64,000 nucleotides of DNA. It comes from Sipunculus nudus. Lineage: Eukaryota > Annelida > Sipuncula > Golfingiida > Sipunculidae. The position numbers and the translations under genes were made by a program. The DNA is taken from contig CM049306.1 in assembly GCA_026874595.1 (NCBI GenBank), positions 60,084,019-60,148,018 on the forward strand, in the 5' to 3' direction. Positions within the stretch are counted from its first letter, which is position 1, and each line of letters opens with the position of its first letter. Below are positions 22,958 to 52,307 of the stretch, piece by piece. Under the pieces are notes generated by a model. The model was not told where the DNA came from, ran no database searches, and saw nothing but the letters and a program-made list of their open reading frames with translations.

Positions 22958-23001
22958 TTAAGTTTTAGAGGAACCCTGCACTTGGAGTAAACTTTGAGAA
23001 C

Positions 23002-25548
23002 ATGGCTTGTCAACATATTGGTTCCAGAGATGCTGTCAACATGTTTGTGTTATCAGGAGCAGTTTTGGTGGTTTTCATGTCATCAGGTGTTCATGGTGCT
23101 GCTCCTGTTTTTTCGCCGAGTACAATAACTGACAATGGACATGTTGCAAATGAGAACAGCAGCATTACATGGGGCAGTCCACCTGCAGGATCACAATATG
23201 CTGGAGATGAATCGTATAATGACGGAGGACTGGGTCCACTGTTTAATGGTGCAAGAAATTTCATCAATATGGTCCAGCCAAACACATTTCCTACAGATAT
23301 GGTGAAAGCTCTGATATCTGGGACTTTTAACTTTGGTAGTGATTACATGCAGATTGTGATGTATGGTGTAGGTTTCGCAGTATGTTTTGCGATTGGCATC
23401 CTGTATATACTCATCACACCGCTTGTGGGCTTCATATTCTGTTGCTGCCGCTGTTGTGATAAATGTGGAGGGAAGATGACACAAAACATTAACAGCAGCT
23501 CCGGATGCAAGAGAACTGTTTTCAGCTTGACCTGCTTCATATTGACTGTGTTCATGGGTGTCGGCATGATCTGCACATACGTAACGAGTGAGCACATAAT
23601 GACTGCTGTAAGGGCAGTCAGCTCCACAACCTCCGATCAGATGGATAATGCTGAACGTTACCTGAATAACACCCTCCAGGAGATTAATTTCCTTGGTCCT
23701 CAGAGTTTTAATTTTACGAGTCAAGTCATCATGAGAGATTTGGATAATATCGGGTACCTTGTCGGGATCCCAGTCAGACGAAACTTGCTCACAAATGGTG
23801 GAGTGGACAGTGCTATTAATAGTATACTCAACATGGAATCCACCATATCCACAGTGTCTGCTAGCTTGTTCGCCGTGAACACAAGTATCAATGAGATTAA
23901 GGAAAACGCTGCCCAGCTGTCAGGTAACCTGTCTGATATACAACAGCAGATTAACATTACAATATCTGATCCAGCATGTGCTGGATGCAGTGATCAGATT
24001 GACATCACCACTTTACAGATGGATGTGAACTTTAATTCTCTGCCTGATATTTCCAGTGAAGTTAACCAAATGCAAGATGTAACAGCTAAGAATCTGACGG
24101 CCCTTGTGATCCAGGGAAAGCAGGAATTTGACGACATTCCTCAGCGAGTGCAGAATGAGACTGCTTCAACAGTGAGTGACATCAAAGGTATGATGAGTAA
24201 TTTTAACACAAAGATAGACTCCACACTCCAGTCTGTGAATGACATGCCAAAGAGTATCGTCCCAGAAATCTCCAAGTATAAGACCATGGTGACAGACTAC
24301 AGTAAGATGGCTGATGAGTATGACCAGTATAGATGGTATGGCTCCATTGGTTTAGCCAGCACCATTTTGATCATTGTAGTACTCCAGGTTTTGGGACTTT
24401 TGTTTGGATGTCTGTGTTCCAGTGCTGATACTAATCCTAAGGACAGGAACTGCTGCTCAAACTGTGGCGGACTGATGCTGATGGCAGCTACTGGTTTCAT
24501 CTTCATCTTCTCTGTGTTGCTGATGCTGCTGACATCAACTACATTCCTGGTAGGAGGAAATCTCGAAAAGCTGGTGTGTGAGCCACTGAATGACCCACAG
24601 CTGAAAGATTTATCAGAACTGCTGGATGGTCCTAACGGTTACTTCAAAGAATACATGCTGGGTAAGTTAATTTTGAAAAACCGCAGTGTACCCTTAACCA
24701 TAGCTGGTGTACTCAGTGACTGCAAGAACAATAAGGGTGCCATGGCTGCATTCAAGCTGGATAACTTGTTTGATATTCAGCAAATTGCTAATATCCATAG
24801 CCAAATCAACATCAGCAGTGAGATGGACAAGATCAATGTGGATTTGAGTTCTGTGGGCATCCTGAGTTCAGACACAGAAAACCAGTTGAGAGATTTCAGT
24901 GCTACCACAAGTATTGACTTTAATCAGTTTAACTCAGAACTTGGGAAAGGCACAACTCAGGCAAATTTGACTGCATTCGCAGAAGTTCTAGAACTGCTCG
25001 CTGCTAACAGTACATCACCAGTGAATGAAAGTCTGATAAATCATGCCAGCGACCTGAGGGATCTGGATAACGGTCTCGCTGAAACTGTGAGGACCAAGCA
25101 AGCCCAGTTACTGACCAATGTACAAAGCTTGAATAACTCAATGGTGAACATACCAGTAACTGTGAATTCTACTCTTGATAACGCCAAGAGTGTGGAAAGT
25201 TACCTTCAGCAGAATGGCACCCAACTTATAAAGGATCAAGCGACAGTCTACGGCACTCGGCTCCTGGGGATAGCCGAGTCTTACATAAACCACACCCTCG
25301 ACAAGATCGTGAACACTGCTGGTGGATGTCGGCCTTTGTATAACCTGTATAAGGCTATAACGGGGACTGTACTGTGCAAGTATTTTGTTGATACACTCAA
25401 TGGGTTCTGGTTCTCACTAGGTTGGGCTATCTTCTTCATGGTGCCTAGTTTGATTATTAATGTGAAGCTTGCCAAGTATTACCGACAAATGAAGGATTCA
25501 GTAGGAACTGTGAAGCCACCGTCTAGGAACCAAGTTAGTGCAGCCTGA
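23002..25548 (+). CDS. Prominin (CD133-like) pentaspan membrane glycoprotein, single exon, nested in HTT intron
   Basis: A complete 848-codon open frame. Prominins are cholesterol-binding glycoproteins of plasma-membrane protrusions and photoreceptor discs. The layout is diagnostic: signal peptide (about 1-33), short extracellular head, TM1 (about 116-146) followed by CCCRCCDKCGG (147-157), TM2 (about 172-193), first large loop (194-444) with many N-glycosylation sites, TM3 (about 447-470), Cys-rich link with CCSNCGG (484-490), TM4 (about 491-517), second large loop (518-800), TM5 (about 801-820) and a 28-residue tail. The length matches the family. The start context aacATGg is good, and no upstream in-frame ATG fits better. 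Vertebrate prominin genes have more than 20 coding exons, so one exon here implies retroposition or full intron loss. The frame is intact, which suggests a working gene. The paralogue is not resolved, so no symbol is given. Confidence 0.93.
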   Translation: MACQHIGSRDAVNMFVLSGAVLVVFMSSGVHGAAPVFSPSTITDNGHVANENSSITWGSPPAGSQYAGDESYNDGGLGPLFNGARNFINMVQPNTFPTDMVKALISGTFNFGSDYMQIVMYGVGFAVCFAIGILYILITPLVGFIFCCCRCCDKCGGKMTQNINSSSGCKRTVFSLTCFILTVFMGVGMICTYVTSEHIMTAVRAVSSTTSDQMDNAERYLNNTLQEINFLGPQSFNFTSQVIMRDLDNIGYLVGIPVRRNLLTNGGVDSAINSILNMESTISTVSASLFAVNTSINEIKENAAQLSGNLSDIQQQINITISDPACAGCSDQIDITTLQMDVNFNSLPDISSEVNQMQDVTAKNLTALVIQGKQEFDDIPQRVQNETASTVSDIKGMMSNFNTKIDSTLQSVNDMPKSIVPEISKYKTMVTDYSKMADEYDQYRWYGSIGLASTILIIVVLQVLGLLFGCLCSSADTNPKDRNCCSNCGGLMLMAATGFIFIFSVLLMLLTSTTFLVGGNLEKLVCEPLNDPQLKDLSELLDGPNGYFKEYMLGKLILKNRSVPLTIAGVLSDCKNNKGAMAAFKLDNLFDIQQIANIHSQINISSEMDKINVDLSSVGILSSDTENQLRDFSATTSIDFNQFNSELGKGTTQANLTAFAEVLELLAANSTSPVNESLINHASDLRDLDNGLAETVRTKQAQLLTNVQSLNNSMVNIPVTVNSTLDNAKSVESYLQQNGTQLIKDQATVYGTRLLGIAESYINHTLDKIVNTAGGCRPLYNLYKAITGTVLCKYFVDTLNGFWFSLGWAIFFMVPSLIINVKLAKYYRQMKDSVGTVKPPSRNQVSAA

Positions 25549-40009: not shown

Positions 40010-40526
40010 GTAATCCAGCGCTGACAGATAAAGTTTTTATTATAATTAAAAATATCTTGCAACTTTTCATTAAAGGTCTCAGACAGCTTCTAATTTTAGT
40101 CACTGAAAGAACTCAGCCCACAACATAGCATGGATCTGCATACAGATCAGTATGGCTGTCTAGAGAATAGCAGAGAATAAACTTTTGATATATCAATAAA
40201 ATCAAATAAAATGTAAATATTATTATTCCCTTTGGGAAAAAAAGGTTACAAGCACAATTTATCAATAGCAATTATTTACTTTCTTTAGCCATTGTTTGAC
40301 AGAAAATGATAAAGTGATACGGTTATGGTGTGTACTGTTTTCACATCATGTCTTCTTAGACGACTTGTTTATTCTGTTTAAAGCTTATGCTTATTTTAAT
40401 TATTGCAGATTATTTCATTTTAATCCTATCCCGTGTTTAGTTATTATTGATTTCATTTAAATTCTTACACTCTTTATATTTATGCTCAGCTGTTAATGTT
40501 ATTGTTTCTTTAACAAATTTTCAAAA
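40010..40526 (+). other. HTT intron 10, unique part
   Basis: AT-rich intron without a recognised element, up to the start of the acceptor array. Confidence 0.4.
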
Positions 40527-40913
40527 GCTGGACATGTTCATTTGTGGTGCCTGGCTATACATTCCAGGTGCTGGACATGTTCATTTGTGGTGCCTGGTTT
40601 ATACATAACAGGTGCTTGACATGTTCATTTGTGGTGCCTGGTTTATACATTTCAGGTGTTGGACATGTTCATTGTGGTGCCTGGTTTATACATTACAGGT
40701 GCTGGACATGTTCATAGTGGTGTCTAGTTTATACATTACAGGTGCTGGATATGTTCATCGTGGTGCCTGATTTATACATTACAGGTGCTGGACATGTTCA
40801 TTGTGGTGCCTGGTTTATACATTACAGGTGCTGGATATGTTCATCGTGGTGCCTGATTTATACATTACAGGTGCTGGACATGTTCATTGTGGTGCCTGGT
40901 TTATACATTACAG
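40527..40913 (+). repeat. Tandem array of nine decoy acceptors of HTT exon 11
   Basis: Nine direct copies (43-44 bp) of a unit made of the last 19 intron bases (cctggtttatacattacag) and the first 24 exon bases (the codons for VLDMFIVV). Copies begin at about 40527, 40568, 40612, 40656, 40699, 40742, 40785, 40828 and 40871. Copies 6 and 8 are identical, as are 7 and 9, showing a later 86-bp duplication. Most copies keep the AG and the pyrimidine-poor tract of the true site. Because 43 is not a multiple of three, use of copies 5-9 would shift the frame or hit TGA/TAG soon after. Confidence 0.95.
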
Positions 40914-41030
40914 GTGCTGGACATGTTCATAGTGGTACTGCACCAGAGTCACAAGGAGAGTGAAGAGAAGTGGAAGAGACTGTCCAGACAGGTGGTGGAC
41001 ACAGTCCTGCCAAAACTGGCAGCCCAGCAG
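40914..41030 (+). CDS. HTT: HTT exon 11 of window
   Basis: The true exon follows the ninth decoy acceptor. It encodes [15 protein letters not shown], against human VLEMFILVLQQCHKE, and [20 protein letters not shown], against human [20 protein letters not shown]. Exactly 39 codons; donor gtcagt. Confidence 0.98.
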
Positions 41031-41557
41031 GTCAGTTTATATCCTTGCCAGTATATAGTAGGGCGGCAGACCCATTATATTTCCCAGTTATTTCCAACTT
41101 CAGTTTTATTCCTATAATTAGAGTTAATCGAAAAGGATTTCTATGTTTCCAGTTCATTGGTTAAAAGATTCAGTCCTTTTTCTTCCTGCTGTAAGTAACC
41201 ATTTGTAAGGACACTGTCTACATAGACTTTATGCTGCTTTACCATCCTTCATGTTATCGTCAGAAGTCATGAACAACATTGTCCACTGTGTATAATATTC
41301 TAATACATTATTTGACAAATCTGGTATATAATACTTAATTGTAAAATGGTACCTTTTTGTAAACCAGTAGAAACAAAGTTCAATTTTCATGAAATATGTA
41401 AAGTCACTTGCTATATATATTGATAGCAAATGTGAAATAGCAATGTGGTATTCTTAAGTAAAAACAATATTGTTTTAGTGAATTTAGCTATTGTTAAGAG
41501 TGACTAAATTACTTTTGATGAAAGTGATATATCAGTTGAAATGTTTTTCCTTTGTAG
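41031..41557 (+). other. HTT intron 11
   Basis: AT-rich; no feature recognised. Confidence 0.45.
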
Positions 41558-41680
41558 CTGAACCTTGAAGGTCAGGTGGCCCTGGATGTCCTTCACCGCC
41601 TGTTTGAGTCTGTAGCACCAAGCGTGTTCCGCCCAGTGGACCTGGTCCTTAAAACACTTATGGCACCCCCTGCTAACTTG
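41558..41680 (+). CDS. HTT: HTT exon 12 of window
   Basis: Acceptor cctttgtag, donor gtatgt. It encodes VLHRLFESVAPSVFRPVDL, against human VLNTLFEILAPSSLRPVDM. 41 codons. Confidence 0.97.
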
Positions 41681-42577
41681 GTATGTATAGACATTTACTT
41701 ATATACAACTCTATATATCATAACCTAAACTTTATTTTTTTCTACAGGTTCAAAATATTTCCTTTCATTTTGTTGATTATTATATCTTTCTTTGTGATAA
41801 TTATCATAATTATTCCCTTACTAATTGGCTTGTAAAATAGTCAAAATAGATTAAACTTATGTTAATAATATTATTTTGGATGATGCTTTTAATATTTATT
41901 TTGATTGAGAGTAAATACAGACTGATTTATTTAACTGAATACTTTACATGGTAGTAAATTTTATTTATTCATGGGATGAAGCTTGATGGGCTTGAGATTT
42001 TTAACATGGAAGTATAAAATTGAAATATTAAACACCTTTAATTTCTTGCTGTGCTTCTGTAAATTGATTTATACCAAACAAACAAAAATTATTTTTGTAT
42101 GAGCCTATTCCAATATCTGAAGTCTGTTAACTAAACATAATCTTTTGAACCTTTTATCAAAATATGCCTGAAAATGTTGATCCCACCACACATAGGCTGT
42201 TTGTTTGATTAATATCCAAGTGTTTATAACATGTTGGGTCCTACCATAATAATCCAAAAACATTCAACAAGGACATCTGGAATTAAGTAAGAACGAGAGA
42301 TTTGAGGCAGGCATTTTGCAACTGGTGACTTTTCAACTACGTTACATATGTTACCAACTACCTTAGGTTGCATAGTTTTCCATTTGTCAACATTGCTGTG
42401 TTTACTAACAGCTTGTAAAAAAAAGCTCATACATCCCTCACAAAGGGGTTATAATACTTTTCTCAACAGAAATTACCCACAGTTTATATACATGTCTGCA
42501 GAGTAAGTAAAAAATCACATAAATTCTACAGGAGAGGTAGGTGAGTGGCTGGCTTTAAAGATTATGTCTGTTAACAC
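41681..42577 (+). other. HTT intron 12, first part
   Basis: AT-rich. It holds an inverted copy of repeat G at 42225-42440 and nothing else recognised. Confidence 0.4.
42225..42440 (-). repeat. Interspersed repeat G, copy 2
   Basis: The complement reads 'gatgtccttgttgaatgttt' and 'tggattattatggtagg', matching the copies at 31585 and 45544. Confidence 0.55.
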
Positions 42578-42665
42578 CATTTTATATGAACATAAACATA
42601 TCTGGTTTTACAGGGTAGTACCAAGGCCATGGAGTAGTAGTTGTGTGTTGTCCTTGTGTTAAGAT
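42578..42665 (+). repeat. Duplicated acceptor (one decoy) of HTT exon 13
   Basis: An 88-bp unit repeated directly at 42666. It contains the intron tail (catttta...tttacag) and about 45 exon bases. The decoy acceptor ends at 42613. The decoy reads GSTKAME and then TAG, TAG, so it could not give full-length protein. Most differences from the true copy are G-to-A or C-to-T changes. Confidence 0.93.
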
Positions 42666-42701
42666 CATTTTATATAAATTTAAACATGTCTGTGTTTACA
42701 G

Positions 42702-42934
42702 GGTAGTGCCAGGGCCATGGAGCAGTGGTTGTGTGTAGTCCTTGTCGTGCTGCGGGTCCTCATCTCCCAGTCCAAGGAGGAAACTGTGTTGTCACGGTTA
42801 CAAGAGCTAGGTCTCCATGTCACTGTCATGGCAGACACTGCTGCCCGTCACCGTGGAGACATCACAGGACCAGAGAAAGAAAGCAGGCAGCATAATGAAG
42901 ATGAGCTGGCCATTCCAGAACAGGTTCTTGCAAG
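42702..42934 (+). CDS. HTT: HTT exon 13 of window
   Basis: Acceptor gtttacag, donor gtaaat. It encodes [20 protein letters not shown], against human [20 protein letters not shown], followed by a charged, poorly conserved stretch. It ends with two bases of an Arg codon. Confidence 0.97.
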
Positions 42935-44198
42935 GTAAATTCTTTTAACATTCACCTTTTTTTTTTACCTATAAAGTGTAGCAATATGCTGAATATGGGA
43001 GTCAGCTATATATTCAGATTTGTAAAATTTGTGCAGAAAATTATAACCTACTTGTGTATATTTCTTTTGATATGGGGATGTTTTGCATGTCATGTAACCT
43101 ACAGCTATATTCATTCCAGTAGTAGTGTAGTATAGTCTGTTCCACAGTGGGGTGCCCATTGAAATTCTGAAATATTTTCATAAATTGAAAGATCATTTAT
43201 TAAAAGTAAGTTGCATTGAAGGAATGAGGAATAGGCCCTATTAACTAGAATGAAAACAAAATCATATTGATCAGTATGTTTAAGTAATTTTGTTGCATCA
43301 GTTTTTGAAAAAAAAAAATGTTTGACAACATCTTAACTTGGTTGATGAAGGTCAAGATCACTGGTCACATAATCAAACACCTGCATTTAAAAGCTGTTGA
43401 TTGCTTGATTGGTGTCAGAAATATTCTGAAAGTCTTTCAGAGCTTGGCTGGCAACCCTTGAGAGACACCATGTCACATGGTCACAAGATTCAGAACCAGA
43501 CGGTCACCAATACAAATGTTGGATTTTATTGTGAAGTTTTACATTTCTTATTAGGCCATTGGTCCCTCATCAGCTTTAGTGTCAAATTGTGTCACAATAT
43601 TAACGTCAAGAGAACTATCATCAAATTGTAATAGGCACCTACTGTTGGAACAGATTATAGACAAGTAAGCATCTTTCTCTCTTGGGAGACAGTGGTAGAT
43701 CCATGGGTGTTCAGTTGAGCCTATGAGCAGCCTAAGACATGACACAGGAGCTCCACCAATGCATGGCACACTGCAGTGATTTTCATATGCATATTTGTAA
43801 AGAGATTTTTGAGTTAGGGCAAAGCTCTTTGTAACTCTATTCTGTTATAGATACATGAAAAATATAGAACATTATTTATTCTAACCATTTGTATCTTTTT
43901 ATTGTAAATTTAGATATGATGAGTTTTACACAGGATACTTTTCACTCACAATATCAATATGTTAATATTGCATGTGGTATTATGTATGCATGGATTAATT
44001 TAAACATGCAAAAATTTTGTTTGAAAGTGCTATTACTTCTCATGCTTTCATCCTGAAATTTCAATCTGACCAATAGTTCATGATAAATTTTCCTGTTTGC
44101 ATAATACTTCCTGTTTTCTTTAAATACTCCTTGTCCTTAATGACACAACTGATTATCTTCTAGTTTTCTTACTACCTGTGGTTTGGTCTTGTTTTCAG
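42935..44198 (+). other. HTT intron 13
   Basis: 1.26 kb, AT-rich. I recognise no gene or repeat in it. Confidence 0.45.
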
Positions 44199-44341
44199 AT
44201 TTCTCCTACAGGTGGTGGGAGTTGTAGCTACAGAAGTTCAGCGACAAGTAACTAACCTCTCCACACCAGAGGGTTCCTACTACTTCTTGAGTCAGGAACT
44301 GTCCCATTTCTTCTTGTATGTCATGCACATGTTTCAGTCAG
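44199..44341 (+). CDS. HTT: HTT exon 14 of window
   Basis: Acceptor gttttcag, donor gtgagg. With the split codon it reads RFLLQVVGVVATEVQRQV, against human RFLLQLVGILLEDIVTKQL, and later QELSHFFLYVMHMFQSG, against human QELGTLLMCLIHIFKSG. Confidence 0.96.
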
Positions 44342-44857
44342 GTGAGGCCCTGTTTCTGTCTGCAGTGCAGAAAAACATTATAAAATATGTTGGCCAAAGA
44401 CATTCACAGCTACTTTTATACTTCATCAACAATGAACAGCTTCAAGAATGATGAAAAATTTAACTTTTGCTCAAAAAGAAAAATAAAGCTTTCATTTTTT
44501 ATAATAACATAGTACTTAAATTTATGTAGCTTTACTTCAAAATGGAATTCCAATAAATGAGGATATTATCCAAAATTCAAGGAACATTGATTTTATATAA
44601 TATACATTACAGAGTATTTTAATCATCATTGATATTATTTTTATTGTAAATTTCTATTCTTCCAAAGTTCTGTTTTAAGTGTGTAATGTTTTCGGCATGG
44701 ATATGTCTTTATTCTGTTATTTATGTGTTTAAACTCTGTGACCATTGAAACCATCCTAGAGCTGGGAAGTAAAAGAATAACCTAACATGTAACATCCTCA
44801 ATTTAACCATTGACATTTAATATTAAAATATAAAATTAAAATATTTTATATTTGCAG
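44342..44857 (+). other. HTT intron 14
   Basis: AT-rich; nothing recognised. Confidence 0.45.
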
Positions 44858-45086
44858 GGCTGTTCCGCAGAGTAGCAGTAGCTTGTATGGGACTTATAAG
44901 AAAAGAGACACCTTCAGAATATTACAGCATGGATCGTATCAACCAAGCATTCCAGGATATCGCCACACACCACCCAACTCTGACTTTACAGTGGTGTAAT
45001 ATCCTGATCCTGCTCAACTATGAGAACAAAGCATGGTGGAGCGAGATCCTACAGACCCAGAGGAAATATGTCCATGCCAACACAGA
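44858..45086 (+). CDS. HTT: HTT exon 15 of window
   Basis: Acceptor atttgcag, donor gtgagt. It encodes THHPTLTLQWCNILILLNY, against human TTHPALVLLWCQILLLVNH. The last 19 bases and the donor are the first unit of a tandem array. Confidence 0.97.
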
Positions 45087-45537
45087 GTGAGTCTGAACTG
45101 TAAAGATAATAAAATGTCCACACCAACACAGAGTGAATCTTAAATAAAAAGATAAGAAAATTTCCACACCAACAAAGGGTGAGTCTGAAATAAATAGATA
45201 AAAAAATGTCCACATCAACACAGAGTGAGTCTAAACTGTAAAGATAATAAAATATCCACACTAACTTATAGTTAGTCTGAAATATAAAGATAATAAAATA
45301 TCCACGCTAACTTTTAGTGAATCTGAAATATAAAGATAATAACATGTCAACACTAACACAGAGTGAGTCTGAATTATTAAGATAATAAAATGTCCATGCT
45401 AATACATAGTGATACTTAAATATGAAGATAATTAATTGTCCATGCTCACACAGAGTGAGTCTGAAATATAAAGATAATAAAATGTCCACGCTAACACAAA
45501 GTGAGTCTGAAATTTAACGATAATAAAATGTCTATCT
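45068..45537 (+). repeat. Tandem array of donor sites of HTT exon 15
   Basis: About ten direct copies (unit about 46 bp) plus a partial one. The first is the true exon end and donor. Each unit has the last 19 exon bases (atgtccatgccaacacaga) and 27 intron bases starting gtgagtctga. A GTGAGT donor persists in at least five decoys, and others have GTTAGT, GTGAAT or GTGATA. Extending the exon past the true donor reads GAG TGA, so every downstream decoy would add an immediate stop. Confidence 0.95.
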
Positions 45538-45543
45538 AGGTAA

Positions 45544-45890
45544 TTCATTTTCAGAAAAGTTCTTATAACAGCTCTGAGTACTGTTAATAAACATGGTACA
45601 TGCACCATTATTGACAAACAGAAAAACCTTGTAAACTAAAGTGGTTAATTTGCATATGTACATATGGTTAAAGGTTTGCAGTTGCAAAACGCCCTTTGCA
45701 AAACTCTGGTCTGTCTGACTTTGTGCCATATGTCCTTGTTGAATATGTTTGGATTATTTTGGCAGATCCCCATGTGTTATAGACAAGTGGATGTCGACAT
45801 AATAAACAATCTATGTACGATCAGATCAGTGTTTTCTAGTCTATGTTTTATCAGATGCTCAAGCGATTATCTTTAGTTAATAGATGTGGT
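45544..45890 (+). repeat. Interspersed repeat G, copy 3
   Basis: Follows the donor array. It shares 'attgacaaacagaaaaacct', 'tgtccttgttgaatatgttt' and 'tggattattttggcag' with copy 1. Confidence 0.6.
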
Positions 45891-46107
45891 AGTGTGGTAG
45901 GAATTGGTTGTATTTAGCTCTGAACAGAACCATTGTAATATAACATAAATAGAATGTCCGTGCTTGCCTCTGTTGAGTTCTGGACATGACGATCTTTTAT
46001 CAGTAACTTTACTTTGCATAACCCCTGAGGAATGCAACAAGTAACTATGCCTTGGTTATTGTGTTAGCGAAACATGGTTGTAAATATTTCTAAATCTTAT
46101 GCTTCAG

Positions 46108-46207
46108 ATCTGAGAGAATGAATGGCAACATTCCTACTGACTATGAGAAGTGTTGTAACCTTGAGATTGTACGACGTGGAGGGCTTGTTCTGTTCTGTGA
46201 CTATGTG
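46108..46207 (+). CDS. HTT: HTT exon 16 of window
   Basis: Acceptor tgcttcag, donor gtaggg. It encodes EIVRRGGLVLFCDYV, against human EIVRRGALILFCDYV. The preceding acidic loop of the human protein (MSGEEEDSD) is shortened and different here. Confidence 0.97.
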
Positions 46208-46988
46208 GTAGGGGTACACTTGATCTTGTAATAGTATTTACCAGTGATAGGAACCAGTTGTCAAATCAATATAGATGACAGAAACAAATAAAACAATCAA
46301 TGATCCATTATTAATAGATTATTTTATCTACCTTCTAGCACCATATCGGCCCTCTGACATTACAACCAGATTACTGGCTGTACGAATGCCTTTACATCTT
46401 GTTCTGTGGAATGCATCATAAGGCCCCATGAGGATGCAAATATTTTCTTAATTTTTGACAAAGCCTCATGGTCCACTGGTAGACTGTCAATTGACATTGT
46501 TTACACTTTTTTGTTACACAAGGTTAAGTTTTAATGTTGTCCAATACTTTGTGTTTTGTCTTTCTTATATTTCTGAGAGGATTAAAATATTATTTCTGGA
46601 TAATATTACTTCTTTGCTTGTATATACATAATTGTTTGTACTCAGTTATTATCTCATGATACAATACCTTATACAAAACAGATATAGGATAGTGAACATA
46701 CAAACTATGGACACAATAAGTATACAACTAGGTAGGTTGATGCTTCTGACTAATGATGTTTTGTTTTACATGTCATATATGGTACTGAGAGAAATTTCTG
46801 GAGTTCAGTCTTTTATTTCAGTTGATTATTAATATGAAAATAGCAGAGTTTGTCTATCAGCATGTAAAGTGTCCTTGAATATATGTTGTGGTATGGGTGA
46901 AGTTAAATCTCAAGTGCCCAACATTATGCTTTTACCTTACCCTCTTTATAGTAATGCCTGTGTTTCAACATGTATTCCTTCTTTTAAG
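46208..46988 (+). other. HTT intron 16
   Basis: AT-rich; nothing recognised. It ends in the acceptor cttcttttaag. Confidence 0.45.
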
Positions 46989-47092
46989 TGTGAAAATTTA
47001 ACGGATGCTGAGCACATGACTTGGGTAATCATCAACCACGTGAGTGACCTCATCTCCCTCTGTCATGAACCTCCTGTTCAGGACTTCATCAG
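46989..47092 (+). CDS. HTT: HTT exon 17 of window
   Basis: Acceptor ttcttttaag (AAG rather than CAG), donor gtaaaa. It encodes [18 protein letters not shown], against human [18 protein letters not shown]. Confidence 0.98.
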
Positions 47093-47641
47093 GTAAAATA
47101 CTTCGCTTGTTACTATTCCGATGTAAAGAACTGATGATTATCATGGTGCCACTGTGTAATTCTGATTGGTCATGCTGTATCATCATTGGGAGCATTGGTT
47201 ATTGTTATCTTAACATTATGAAAATTAGTTTGTTACCTTGTTATCATGGAAATTGATGTTCCCTCACAATTTGATAATTCCAAGTGCACAATATTTTAGT
47301 TTTCAAATTTTTATGCACTGCATATATGTTACATTATATTTATTTTCTTATTAATATGACATGCTTTCCTGTACAATTAATACATGTACAGCGGAAATTG
47401 TCTGAAAGACCACCTATCTATTATGACCACCATTCAGTGGACCAAAAGCATCCCCATTGATTTTTACTGACCTGTCTAACAAGACCACCTATGAATTTAG
47501 GCCATGTTTGGCCAGTCTAACAAGTGGTCTCATAACACAGGTTTCACTGTATATCCTTTTTCTGTTTAGTGCATATAGAGTAGAAGTATCAGTGTAGCCA
47601 GTGCTGTATGTTTAATGATTGTACATGTACATCTTTTTCAG
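47093..47641 (+). other. HTT intron 17
   Basis: Contains the MITE at 47389-47549. Otherwise unremarkable. Confidence 0.45.
47389..47549. mobile_element. Mariner-like MITE
   Basis: Flanked by TA. The left end is CAGCGGAAATTG (worn) and the right end CAGGTTTCACTG. The interior has 'gaccacc' and 'gtggtc' phrases as in the copies at 30729 and 37711. Confidence 0.6.
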
Positions 47642-47717
47642 TGCCATACACAGAAACCCAGCGGCAAGTGGACTGTTTATCCAAGCGATCCATGCACGCT
47701 GTGAAAATGTCACCGAG
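47642..47717 (+). CDS. HTT: HTT exon 18 of window
   Basis: Acceptor tctttttcag, donor gttagc. With the split codon it encodes [20 protein letters not shown], against human [20 protein letters not shown]. Confidence 0.98.
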
Positions 47718-48595
47718 GTTAGCTGCACTAACTATTTCTGTTTAACAGATGTTCAGATTATTTATTTACTTAATTGAAGCCCATATCTTGTTCTGTCATC
47801 CAGTGTTACAGTTCTTATCATTTTAGACACAAAGATTTCTCACATTAAGTAAACAACTAACACTCAGTAAAGTAAGTTATTAATTTAGATAAACTGAAAT
47901 TATGTTGGAAATCACAGTCAATGATTCATATATGCAAAACCTGTGTTTGAAAAGGTCAAATGGGACAGGTCATGCCTCATGCTGTACTTGCTCCTAGAAT
48001 TTAAAAATAAGACATATTCACTGGCATCATGCTTTGTGTAACAAGAATTAGAATATGTGTAATCACCAGGGGATGTGAGATGACATCTTGTGTAATAAGC
48101 ATAGTTGATCTCTCCAGGTGGAACCACTGTTTTTCAAATGTTTATCTGGGAAGTATCTGTCTGGCAGTCCCTACAATGGAGAGCAGAAGGAGTAAAAAAT
48201 GCTCTCTCAAAATGGAATTAGAAACATTGGCATTAGAAAATCTTTAAAAGCTAACTATAGTTAGCATGAAGTTCATCCTGTTATATATAACAGGCAAATC
48301 CAAATGGATCTCCTGTAATACTGGATGCAAAAAGATGTCTTGTCAAGTAGGTAACCTGCTCAGTGTTTAGAAGAATTACTTTAAAATGAAAGTTATATTA
48401 TATTAATCTAAAGCAGATTTAATTAAAAGCATAAGCTTTCAAGTGAGTGATGCACATCAATATGAAGTAATGATTTTTGGTGCTAAATTCACATTTAGTG
48501 TAAGAACTGCCTCAAAAAAAGAAAATTAAAGGAACTTATTGTGTAAGTTGAGCTTTAAAAAGGATAATCTTTACAGCCTTTTAATGTTTGAACAG
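47718..48595 (+). other. HTT intron 18
   Basis: AT-rich; no element recognised. A possible alternative acceptor (tttacag at 48570-48576) lies 20 bases before the true one. Confidence 0.4.
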
Positions 48596-48772
48596 CCTCG
48601 TCTAGTGAAGAAGACCCTGCAGTGCTTGGAGGCGATACACCTTACACAGAGTGGGGCGCTGCTGACCCTGCTGATTGATAAGTTCCTCAACACGCATCAT
48701 GTGGCAGTAGCCAGGATGTGTGACACCACGGCCTGTAGACGAGTTGAGATGCTGCTGGCCGAGAGTGTAGAG
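48596..48772 (+). CDS. HTT: HTT exon 19 of window
   Basis: Acceptor tttgaacag, donor gtcagt, 59 codons. It encodes [20 protein letters not shown], against human [20 protein letters not shown], and ACRRVEMLLAES, against human ACRRVEMLLAAN. Confidence 0.98.
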
Positions 48773-49551
48773 GTCAGTAATTGCATTGTTCAACTTAAAC
48801 TGAAAAATAACCAAAGACTGGTATTAAATTGATTGTATATGTGCATACTTTTGATTATTTGCTTTTATTAATGATTTTTTTATCAAACAAAGCAGAGTAA
48901 TATTGAGCATTTAATCAAATGAGCTGCTTTTCTCGTATATTTGTAAACTCTTCATACACAGTGGTTATACACTGCATTCGTTCCAGATCTCCTTCTGTTA
49001 AACCGCTGCTGTGTTTAGCAAGTTTTTCAGGGTTGCAACACCAGGGCTTTCGTAGGGGCCAAGTATCCGACCAACAAGTGCGGGGTGTCGCGGGTTTTAA
49101 ACTTGGAGTTGGATGCACAATGTGATAGCATGCTCTGAGTGGTGTGATTACAAATTTTGGCCCTGTGCCTGCCCTGGTGGTGAAACCCGGAGGATCTTGC
49201 TATACAAAGCAGAACGACTGCAGTGTATAAGCGCTGCATGAGGGGTGTAGTATATTTGTCACTGGACATTTTCCAGAATATTGTCAATAGAAAATAAATG
49301 AATAAAGAGGGTGACAATACTAATCTAAACAAGCTGTACTATTTCCCCTGGCCCCTCTAAAAATTAGTCTATGTTCATATGCTTTAATAAATGCGATGCT
49401 GAAGGCTGGTCTTTGGTGCCAGTGTACACGGTCAGATGGAAGAAATGCCTGGTAACTATCACAAATGGCACATCAGGATGTGGAGGTGTGAGATTCAACA
49501 GTTTTTGAATATATGTCATTTTATTTTAATTTTATAATTTATGGTACACAG
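48773..49551 (+). other. HTT intron 19
   Basis: A stretch at 49012-49250 is GC-richer than its surroundings and may be an unidentified repeat. No gene is supported. Confidence 0.35.
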
Positions 49552-49628
49552 GACAGCAGTTCACAGCTCCCCTTGGAGGACCTGGAGAAACTACTTGAAT
49601 TCATGAAAAGTGCAGCTCTGGACAAAAG
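49552..49628 (+). CDS. HTT: HTT exon 20 of window
   Basis: Acceptor ggtacacag, donor gtagat. It encodes LPLEDLEKLLEFM, against human LPMEELNRIQEYL. It ends with two bases of an Arg codon. Confidence 0.94.
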
Positions 49629-49870
49629 GTAGATAAATATATTTTTCAAAAAAGTTATTTACAATTACTTAACATCTAATGCTTCATTCACATTTTCAAT
49701 TAGAATTTAATAGGTTTCTTAAGGGAAGCCAAGTTTAACATAGGTAATCAATAATAAAATTAGTCTCATGCAAACAAATAATGATACATTTATTTCAGCA
49801 CAGGTTTTAGTCACATTTGATGTTATATGATGAATATGTAATATATTGTGATATTTACTGTATTCTGTAG

Positions 49871-50006
49871 ACATGCCAGACTGGTGGCCCTGCTGAACAA
49901 ACTACATGGAGCTATGAGCCCCCTCAGTCACCCTATCCTCTCTCCAGTCCTGTCTCATCCACTGGCTACATCACCTCTAGGAGCTGAAGCCATCACAGTG
50001 GATAAG
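49871..50006 (+). CDS. HTT: HTT exon 21 of window
   Basis: Acceptor ttctgtag, donor gtcagg. It encodes ARLVALLNKL, against human QRLYSLLDRF. A Ser/Pro-rich stretch (SPLSHPILSPVLSHP) follows, the counterpart of the human SLSPSPPVSSHP loop. Confidence 0.95.
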
Positions 50007-50435
50007 GTCAGGGGCCATGTCAAATATACACCACTCCCATAATGGTAGCTGCCTTTGCGTTTTCTGGGCCTAGTAGTGTGTTTTGGATACCTTGTGTGTC
50101 AGGACAGTAAAGTGCATTTTGAAATAAATTTCTTTTGATAGTTTTCTGGGAATTTTATATATAAGTTCAGACTGAACAATCCATGGCAGTTGAAATCTAT
50201 TTCTGAGGACAGGTTTACGTATTTCTATCTGCCTGGGTAATACAAAGAACTGGAGCAAGTATACAGAATTAAAATATCACTTCTTAACTTAAACAATCAT
50301 CAAACTGCATATAATGTGTGCATACAATCAGGCATAAAAGTATAAAACACATATACCAAGGCTGATATCTGAGCTGCACTCTTAGAAAGACAAAAGATGG
50401 CGCTTTAAGTCAGCAAATTAATTTCTGTTAACTCT

Positions 50436-50460
50436 TGGTATGTATCCATTGTTAAGGACC
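50436..50460 (+). repeat. Worn duplicate of the start of HTT exon 22
   Basis: Twenty-five bases match the true exon from its second codon with three differences, 76 bp upstream. The decoy still reads WYVSIVKD, because all three differences are synonymous, but the AG acceptor is lost (ttaac) and a TAG follows shortly after. Confidence 0.75.
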
Positions 50461-50508
50461 TAAGGACCTTTGTTTAGCATTCTACAGGGTAGTGTTTTCA
50501 TATTTTAG

Positions 50509-50628
50509 GACTGGTATGTTTCCATCGTGAAGGACCAGTGTTACACGGGGTCATCGTCACCCAGAGAGTCAGCCCAGCTCCTGCAGCAGCTAGACTACTC
50601 AAGCATGCTAACCATTTTCATGACAAAG
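50509..50628 (+). CDS. HTT: HTT exon 22 of window
   Basis: Acceptor tattttag, donor gtaaca, 40 codons. It encodes DWYVSIVKDQCYTGS, against human DWYVHLVKSQCWTRS. Confidence 0.96.
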
Positions 50629-51505
50629 GTAACAAATAGTCATTATGGCAACAAGCATCCCAGAGTTACACCTTTATCAACAAGTCACCACAAGATTCTT
50701 GTATCATTGTTATTTCAGTATATAAGTATTTGTGGTTGTGTGCATTTATGTTGGTCATACCGATGTCTTAATTTTTCGCTCAGCGGACTGAAAGTCAACT
50801 GAGGTAAAGGAATTGCAATATGTCCATCGTTCATCCAGACGTTTGTTAGCAGTGCACAAATCATAACAGCTGGACCTAGAAATTTCTAATTGAACATCCG
50901 GGGAGGATAATGAAAATTTTCCTTTGAAACCTGAAATTAAGTCAGTGTGACCTATATTTTATAGACTTTTACAAGAAAAGGCCTGAAGGGGCCTGCTTTG
51001 TGTGAGGGGGGTTCATAGGATTGTAGTTAATTAACACTAATTACTCTGCACAGGAACAAAAAGAGTGATTATATGTGTAACATTTTATAATTTTTGTTTG
51101 TATCACAAGAAAAAATTTGGTATTTCATTTGAATACAAATATTTTGCAAACATGATGAAAGTTTGTGAATATAGTTGCTAAACAATGGTCTTAAAACTGT
51201 AAAATGTGCATGTAACATGCGCATATAAGCAACCCAAGTTACTGGAACAAATATTTTGTAACTGTTTTCCTGGTTATCTTCGAAATTCTCACATGGTATA
51301 AGTCTGTAGTGGTCTAAAGCTTGGATCTAAATATATGATCGCCTCTTTAGTGGTTATGTTATGTCATGTTTATAAAGCCATGGTAGTTTATAAAGATAAA
51401 TGATGTCTGAAAATGTGTACATAACTGTTTATTCTTACATATTAAAATTTATTCTTTGCAGAGCAGATATTGATATTCCTGTACATTGTAATTTATCTAT
51501 TTTAG
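50629..51505 (+). other. HTT intron 22 with a worn family C head
   Basis: At about 50778-51000 lies a decayed hairpin head (gctcagcggactgaaagtca) followed by family C phrases ('gtgcacaaatcataacagct', 'ggacctagaa'). The rest is AT-rich and unrecognised. Confidence 0.5.
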
Positions 51506-51724
51506 GAATTCAACTTGGCAATTTTAGAGGACTGCATAGCATTAGGGGTCGAGAAGACACTGAAGTCAGTACGAAGAGCTAAGGGGGAGAGCGTTTCCTC
51601 AGCAGACAGCTACACACCGGACACTCCGCCAGAACGCAGACTAGATCCGCTACTAAGAGCGGCTCAGCTGACCCTGCTAAGACACATCAACAGTATCGTT
51701 AACATGCTTCCTGTACCCCATCAG
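51506..51724 (+). CDS. HTT: HTT exon 23 of window
   Basis: Acceptor tattttag, donor gtcagt, 73 codons. It encodes EFNLAILEDCIALG, against human EFNLSLLAPCLSLG. A linker with SYTPDTPPERR in the middle replaces the human sequence. It ends PVPHQ, against human PAVHH. Confidence 0.96.
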
Positions 51725-51800
51725 GTCAGTGCCAGAAGCATCTTTCCTCATATTATTCATTTTGCAGCATAATCTCACAGATTGTTAATCATAGTATTTG

Positions 51801-52091
51801 ATATATTTACAGCTGATGAACTTCAGTCAGATTGTGACTCCCAATGATATATTTACAGCCGATAACTTTAGTCAGATTGTGACTCCCCTGTAATATATTT
51901 ACAGATGATGAACTTCTGCCAGATTCTGACCCCCTGTGATGTATTTACAGATGATAAACTTCAGTCAGATTGTGACTCCCCTATAATATATTTACAGATG
52001 ATGATCTTCAGTCAGATTGCAACTTCCCGGTGATATATTTTCAGATGATAAACTTCAGTCAGATTGTGACTCCCTTGTGATATATTTACAG
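51801..52091 (+). repeat. Tandem array of six decoy acceptors of HTT exon 24
   Basis: Six direct copies (46-47 bp) of a unit with the intron tail (tgatatatttacag) and about 30 exon bases (codons MMNFSQIVTP). The decoy exon starts are 51813, 51859, 51905, 51951, 51998 and 52045; the true one is 52092. All six keep the AG. Read from each decoy, translation meets a stop (TGA or TAA) within the array. Confidence 0.95.
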
Positions 52092-52307
52092 ATGATGAAC
52101 TTTAGTCAGATTGTGACTCCCTCTGAAGAGCAATACCGAGACAAGATGGAGGACATGTTCACGGACCCTTCTTGGTTTACATCAGTGTTTCACTTATCAG
52201 CTGCCCTGCTGCGCCACCTGGTGTGCTTGCCGGTACTACCAGTCAGTAACAACATTCCAAAGGACACTGGGAAGGATGTGTGTCGGTTTATGTTGCTCAC
52301 ATTAGAA
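52092..52307 (+). CDS. HTT: HTT exon 24 of window
   Basis: True acceptor atatatttacag, donor gtaagt, 72 codons. It encodes YRDKMEDMF, against human YWSKLNDLF, and CRFMLLTLE, against human VKFVVATLE. The first ten codons are shared with the upstream array. Confidence 0.95.

Follow-up and report, generated by a model that had tools for sequence, protein, structure and literature searches.

Tandem arrays at exon ends of the huntingtin gene

The stretch of DNA analyzed here (the window) comprises 64,000 nucleotides of the Sipunculus nudus genome (assembly GCA_026874595.1, contig CM049306.1, positions 60,084,019 to 60,148,018 of the forward strand) and sits within the huntingtin gene (HTT), several exons of which bear tandem arrays that run across the exon-intron boundary into the adjacent intron. 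The genome searched amounts to 1.43 Gb in 153 contigs. Exons of HTT were placed by huntingtin homology (PDB chains and Pfam Htt families) together with an exon caller in a region of 94 kb, which consists of the window, 10 kb before it and 20 kb after it; the PDB huntingtin chains aligned to exons of the window and its flanks from approximately residue 653 to residue 2970 of the human protein. Curation of the caller output with the homology results gave 42 exons (84 ends), a few of these exons being weakly supported by homology (e.g., that at 73296). We detected tandem arrays with Tandem Repeats Finder (TRF) and then counted the copies in register with the junction.

Junction-spanning copies occur at 4 of the 84 exon ends, namely at three acceptors and one donor, with no fewer than 10 bp of exon and 10 bp of intron in each of the four arrays (positions are those of the window, and all features are on the forward strand). 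The acceptor of the exon at 40914–41030 is spanned by a 43-bp array of 9.5 units (40527–40936) whose repeat unit holds 23 exon bases; nine copies lie upstream, eight of which have AG, and the outermost (at 40525) is partial and without AG. An 88-bp direct duplication of two units (42569–42745) spans the acceptor of the exon at 42702–42934, and its single extra copy has an intact AG. At the donor of the exon at 44858–45086, a 46-bp array of 10.1 units (45068–45532) provides nine downstream copies, all with GT, and the acceptor of the exon at 52092–52307 is spanned by a 47-bp array of 6.9 units (51799–52121) with AG in all six upstream copies. A preliminary description of this locus had given nine, one, about nine and six extra copies for these four arrays, and the in-register counts agree, with the proviso that the first array ends in an incomplete copy. 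It had also listed a fifth junction, the acceptor of its exon 22 (50509–50628, placed by Pfam Htt families and the caller), which is a weak case and of another kind: the element at 50436–50460 is a 25-bp partial copy of exon bases 4–28 (22 of 25 identical) that includes neither the junction nor an AG. This copy scores 17.5, the next-best among the remaining HTT acceptors tested scores 10.5, and 8.7% of 400 random intron points, arrays and satellites included, score at least as high. Two further arrays, at −9478 and 83777 (window-relative), are near misses that start ~18 bp beyond or stop ~20 bp short of a called exon end, and they stand outside the boundary count.

Because the exon portion of every unit falls in conserved coding sequence, the exon is the source from which the intronic copies derive. 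The protein alignments fit an exon-proximal junction and are consistent with its regular splicing. At the 40914 acceptor, where the exon-proximal site is the authentic one, six residues separate the flanking aligned stretches of chain 9pmw, the same number as is coded from the exon-proximal AG, indicating that no extra residues are inserted at this junction (the 9pmw stretch preceding the junction is a weak match, with an independent E-value of 0.094). As regards a dispersed satellite or transposon unit, one array was searched for genome-wide: a 301-base query comprising the exon end and first copies of the donor array matched that array only, whole-genome match counts being lower bounds.

Boundary-spanning arrays in a sample of other genes

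A further 26 loci of 10 kb each were picked by protein-family matches only, blind to repeats. These comprise 19 dynein heavy-chain, two ITPR/RYR-type, one FAT-domain (TOR-like) and four BEACH loci, cut from 33 match clusters of our own clustering (19 of 19 for dynein, 2 of 5 for ITPR/RYR-type, 1 of 1 for FAT and 4 of 8 for BEACH). For exon calling we trained a codon and splice-site model on the 42 HTT exons, and the calls provided 380 exon ends. The array set consists of 30 non-simple tandem arrays with a period of 20–130 at a fixed threshold; excluded beforehand were exon calls with a coding score below 4 or a length below 40 bp, islands shorter than 20 bp and simple repeats, of which the circular-shift run described below had four islands.

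Fourteen of the 30 arrays touch a called exon end, and these touching arrays are spread over eight contigs besides the HTT contig. Ten of the 30 span the end strictly (at least 10 exon and at least 10 intron bases): one each in L005, L006, L010, L012, L022 and L028 and two each in L011 and L025, at three acceptors and seven donors. What the preliminary description had presented as a feature of one gene is thus found with the same structure at exon ends of other genes in this sample. The touching arrays that are not strict are those of L013, L017 and L026 and that at L011 donor 2160, the last of which was set aside by eye. When the exon peptides of the touching arrays were checked together with that of L020, 13 of 14 matched the Pfam family of their own gene, those of L010, L020 and L028 slightly below the curated cut-off; the peptide of L025 5900–6018 had no Pfam family match. 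L011 donor 2160 and L011 acceptor 2004 belong to the same exon, which was checked once.

Some boundaries required adjustment. The exon caller misplaced two exon ends at boundary arrays, that of L010 by 14 bp inside the array and that of L020 to a position outside it. The L010 donor was shifted by hand from 1501 to 1487, partly on the basis of dynein sequence, and L020 acceptor 5369, a further case once its exon is corrected by homology, was added by hand and stands outside the counts. The array at L007 9222, ~10 bp past a called exon end, is a near miss outside the boundary count, and two larger-period islands that touch called exons in L016 and L028 rest on apparent satellite open reading frames, as judged by eye.

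Two loci are of additional interest. In L011 (gene-sense 1008–2675), a dynein exon has an acceptor array of 17 copies of a 56-bp unit and a different array that starts at about its donor. The 55-bp donor array of L010 (1435–1920) contains AG/GT pairs, and inside this array the caller built 23-bp pseudo-exons; new micro-exons might start in this way.

Excess of array seeds at junctions

Junction-spanning seeds exceed the number expected under even seeding, and they recur across unlinked genes. Even seeding predicts 1.66 touching arrays, compared with the 14 observed (P = 6e-11), and 1.31 strictly spanning arrays, compared with the 10 observed (P = 1.8e-7); some of the called exons are false and lie in repeat-derived open reading frames, which inflates the expected number. 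Touching arrays account for 10 of the 22 arrays in the 19 dynein loci and for 4 of the 8 in the other seven loci. With 36 larger-period islands added as intron founders, the strict count becomes 10 of 66, with 3.31 expected (P = 0.0015). Expressed as founder density, there are 0.66 seeds per kb of junction space versus 0.074 per kb of intron, a difference of ~9-fold. The earlier claim that the HTT arrays reflect a process and not chance is supported by this independent founder count.

Two candidate causes were considered and are not supported. Splice-like motifs show no enrichment in 16 intron-only arrays, so that the boundary, rather than the motif, seems to matter, and splice motifs as array seeds find no support. 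Guanine-cytosine (GC) content as the sole cause is likewise not supported, being 36% in intron-only arrays, 34% in introns, 50% in exons and 40% in boundary arrays.

Behavior of the copies

We examined the copies in 17 arrays (4 in HTT and 13 elsewhere, with L011 donor 2160 left out), 15 of which yielded in-register copies (n = 137). The splice dinucleotide is kept in 109 of these copies (79.6%), versus the 82% that per-base identity elsewhere in the unit predicts, which amounts to near-neutral decay; across the 15 arrays, the dinucleotide and the rest of the unit show no overall difference in conservation (Wilcoxon P = 0.31). Copies diverge from their own consensus at ~10% of positions, units differ between loci, and as many as 25 similar copies are present at the junction in L022. 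None of the copies examined is productive in prediction: use of a copy is predicted to leave the frame open in none of the 62 donor and none of the 75 acceptor copies, with the site lost in 28, a frameshift in 75 and an in-frame stop in 34.

Origin of the arrays

The explanation that we favor, and consider probable, is that the arrays are neutral minisatellites of the kind termed "mirages" in lancelets, seeded by junction-spanning duplications and hidden by splicing. A presumed short tandem duplication (units here are ~23–110 bp) would by chance span an exon end; with the exon-proximal splice site remaining in use, the extra copy would become silent intron sequence, which slippage or unequal exchange could then multiply on the intron side, and the copies would go on to evolve without clear constraint. 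The spliceosome, we infer, mostly ignores the decoys. Among the options raised in the preliminary description, which included splice-site competition and regulated non-productive splicing, simple minisatellite growth seeded at boundaries provides the best fit.

The reason for the ~9-fold denser seeding at junctions is a separate matter. The reason that we favor is that small duplications would arise more readily in exonic DNA, and that only events at the exon edge would survive, splicing hiding them. An alternative places the cause at the splice site itself, where splicing- or transcription-coupled mutagenesis (R-loops, polymerase pausing, nicks) would produce the duplications. Donors and acceptors are both affected and the events center on the exon end itself, as this alternative would have it, yet it is indistinguishable here from a general exon bias and the intron-only arrays carry no motif signal; we regard it as unlikely. 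An exon-wide duplication bias with interior events selected away and splice-site-coupled mutation would each yield the observed pattern.

Two sets of results weigh against hidden, neutral growth of the arrays, the first of which comes from the copies themselves. AG is retained in 71 of 75 acceptor copies, more than neutrality predicts, and GT in 38 of 62 donor copies, fewer than it predicts; a single array, that of L028, accounts for 16 of the 24 donor losses; this imbalance between acceptors and donors may leave room for some selection on the copies. Furthermore, site models trained on the HTT exons score a decoy above the authentic site in 8 of the 15 arrays, and site strength therefore does not explain the silence of the decoys. 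These observations bear on the possibility that the arrays are functional decoys, kept by selection to tune splicing or to feed nonsense-mediated decay (regulated unproductive splicing). Such a role would be in keeping with the retention of AG, with the strength of the decoys and with the predicted outcome of using any of the 109 intact-site copies, all of which would be unproductive (75 by frameshift and 34 by a stop). The dinucleotide, however, is not conserved overall above the rest of the unit, the donor copies decay, and the affected genes come from several unrelated families, and we therefore judge selected decoys to be improbable.

The second set concerns position. Arrays show no coverage excess at junctions: 3.5% of the positions no more than 8 bp from an exon end are covered, compared with 3.8–5.0% at 100–500 bp into introns. 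When the first 20 loci were subjected to a circular-shift control, 7.2 cases were expected and 10 of 22 observed (P = 0.11); this control permits pseudo-exons inside long arrays, which is impossible for real exons, yet as a test of position alone it is the stricter one. When better-scoring exons only are considered, the count in the seven non-dynein loci is 2 of 8 (0.18 expected, P = 0.011), and the seed test takes junction space as at most 60 bp per end, so that longer founding duplications would raise its expectation. If ordinary intronic minisatellites overlapped exon ends by chance, and this was spotted post hoc in one gene, both the plain coverage and the circular-shift result would be accounted for. 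This reading is nevertheless very improbable, given that 10 of 30 arrays span strictly with 1.31 expected, at loci chosen regardless of repeats, and that the exon-proximal copies are conserved protein-coding sequence, which requires a founding duplication across the junction. Coverage lacks a junction excess because the exon end is included only where the founding duplication spanned it and later growth is on the intron side; as growth inflates intron coverage only, coverage is the wrong measure. The preliminary description had held that its view would fall if repeats overlapped exon ends no more often than intron positions; plain coverage gives just this result, but the seed count does not.

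An assembly artefact is scarcely credible: tandem arrays are classic misassembly sites, and the draft of one amphioxus mirage is described as apparently misassembled in a supplementary legend (PMC3087553), yet the copies here diverge from their consensus by ~10%, units vary by locus and touching arrays occur on eight contigs other than the HTT contig.

Comparison with known systems

The preliminary description knew of no gene with serial decoy junctions, but minisatellites that span exon-intron boundaries have been published for lancelets under the name of mirages (PMC3087553; PMC3902484). In the parts of these reports consulted, tandem copies extend over the boundary in genes that include the globins BflGb6 and BflGb9 and Adh3, with PGBD5 and troponin C as further examples (PMC3902484), and regular splicing is reported to proceed undisturbed (PMC3087553; PMC3902484). 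As in the arrays described here, the unit is reported to span the boundary at 5′ or 3′ exon ends, and many but not all copies have AG/GT (109 of 137 here); the lancelet units given range from tens of bp to ~160 bp. The lancelet cases appear in these texts as single-gene reports, some with data from reverse transcription polymerase chain reaction (RT-PCR) and on length differences, whereas the present work offers a 26-locus sample and a background rate. On their anatomy, the arrays in S. nudus are best assigned to the mirage kind, now in a protostome.

Other systems are related in part. A minisatellite with multiple splice donor sites is known from human IFI6 (6-16) (Turri 1995, as cited in PMC4526556), where donor copies are likewise arrayed at a splice donor; two downstream units are there reported to be used as donors, leading to different isoforms, whereas none of our 137 copies is predicted to be open in frame. 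Intron gain has been attributed to tandem duplication of AG/GT segments (PMC2891723; PMC4974935), and human tandem repeats at exon-intron boundaries are said to form new introns (PMC2812944). As outlined in these papers, such systems share with the arrays here an origin in a short tandem duplication or repeat with splice motifs or boundaries, but they propose a new intron, whereas here existing introns acquire silent copies of their ends. The consulted portions of a paper on the amphioxus huntingtin gene (PMC2206037) mention tandem repeats in scaffolds, and those of a paper on earthworm metallothionein (PMC12783039) mention intronic minisatellites, in neither case tied to exon ends. Among the results listed by a literature search, which did not cover most subscription journals, there was no genome-wide survey of boundary arrays and no report beyond lancelets and human.

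The arrays are a real, recurrent feature of a known but little-studied kind, of which the seed excess and the spread over distant animal groups are most worth following: what had been single-gene curiosities of lancelets is now seen repeatedly in different genes of an unrelated animal, where the surplus of seeds at junctions can be measured. The arrays offer natural replicates for the question of how the spliceosome chooses the authentic site when up to 25 copies resemble one another, as in L022, and for the question of whether boundary duplications feed intron gain. Gene-prediction pipelines are at risk as well, since arrays can mislead the calling of exon ends, as L010 and L020 exemplify. 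One may postulate, tentatively and with more doubt than confidence, that an ongoing duplication process aimed at exons or exon edges has decorated ~3% of exon ends and is shared with lancelets across the protostome-deuterostome divide. If so, thousands of arrays could be present genome-wide (extrapolating from long conserved genes, where 10–14 of the 380 called ends are affected), and they would constitute a standing supply of decoy splice sites, of unproductive transcripts and of material from which introns could change.

Additional features of the window and genome

Within a large HTT intron and on the same strand, an uninterrupted frame of 859 amino acids (window 22969–25545, forward strand) has a near-full-length match to Pfam Prominin (E = 2.8e-186), and it is apparently a nested, intronless prominin gene. 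A 12-bp palindrome, GGTGGCGCCACC, occurs 43 times between 7557 and 63135 of the window (at most one mismatch; 0.04 expected), and most of its copies lie within satellite arrays of 278–341 bp between HTT exons.

Further observations were made elsewhere in the genome. In one gene, a single part of the dynein AAA_6 profile is matched four times (C6:39308505, 39310358, 39312189 and 39316227), three of the matches being ~1.85 kb apart; these are repeated exon copies, possibly mutually exclusive exons or the product of tandem duplication. Searches for the hemocyanin and GFP families, run without positive controls, detected neither. The FMRFamide precursor is a protostome, typically molluscan gene, and six sites coding for FMRFGKR within 350 bp (C14:34780723–34781072), with one stray match elsewhere, likely mark such a gene.

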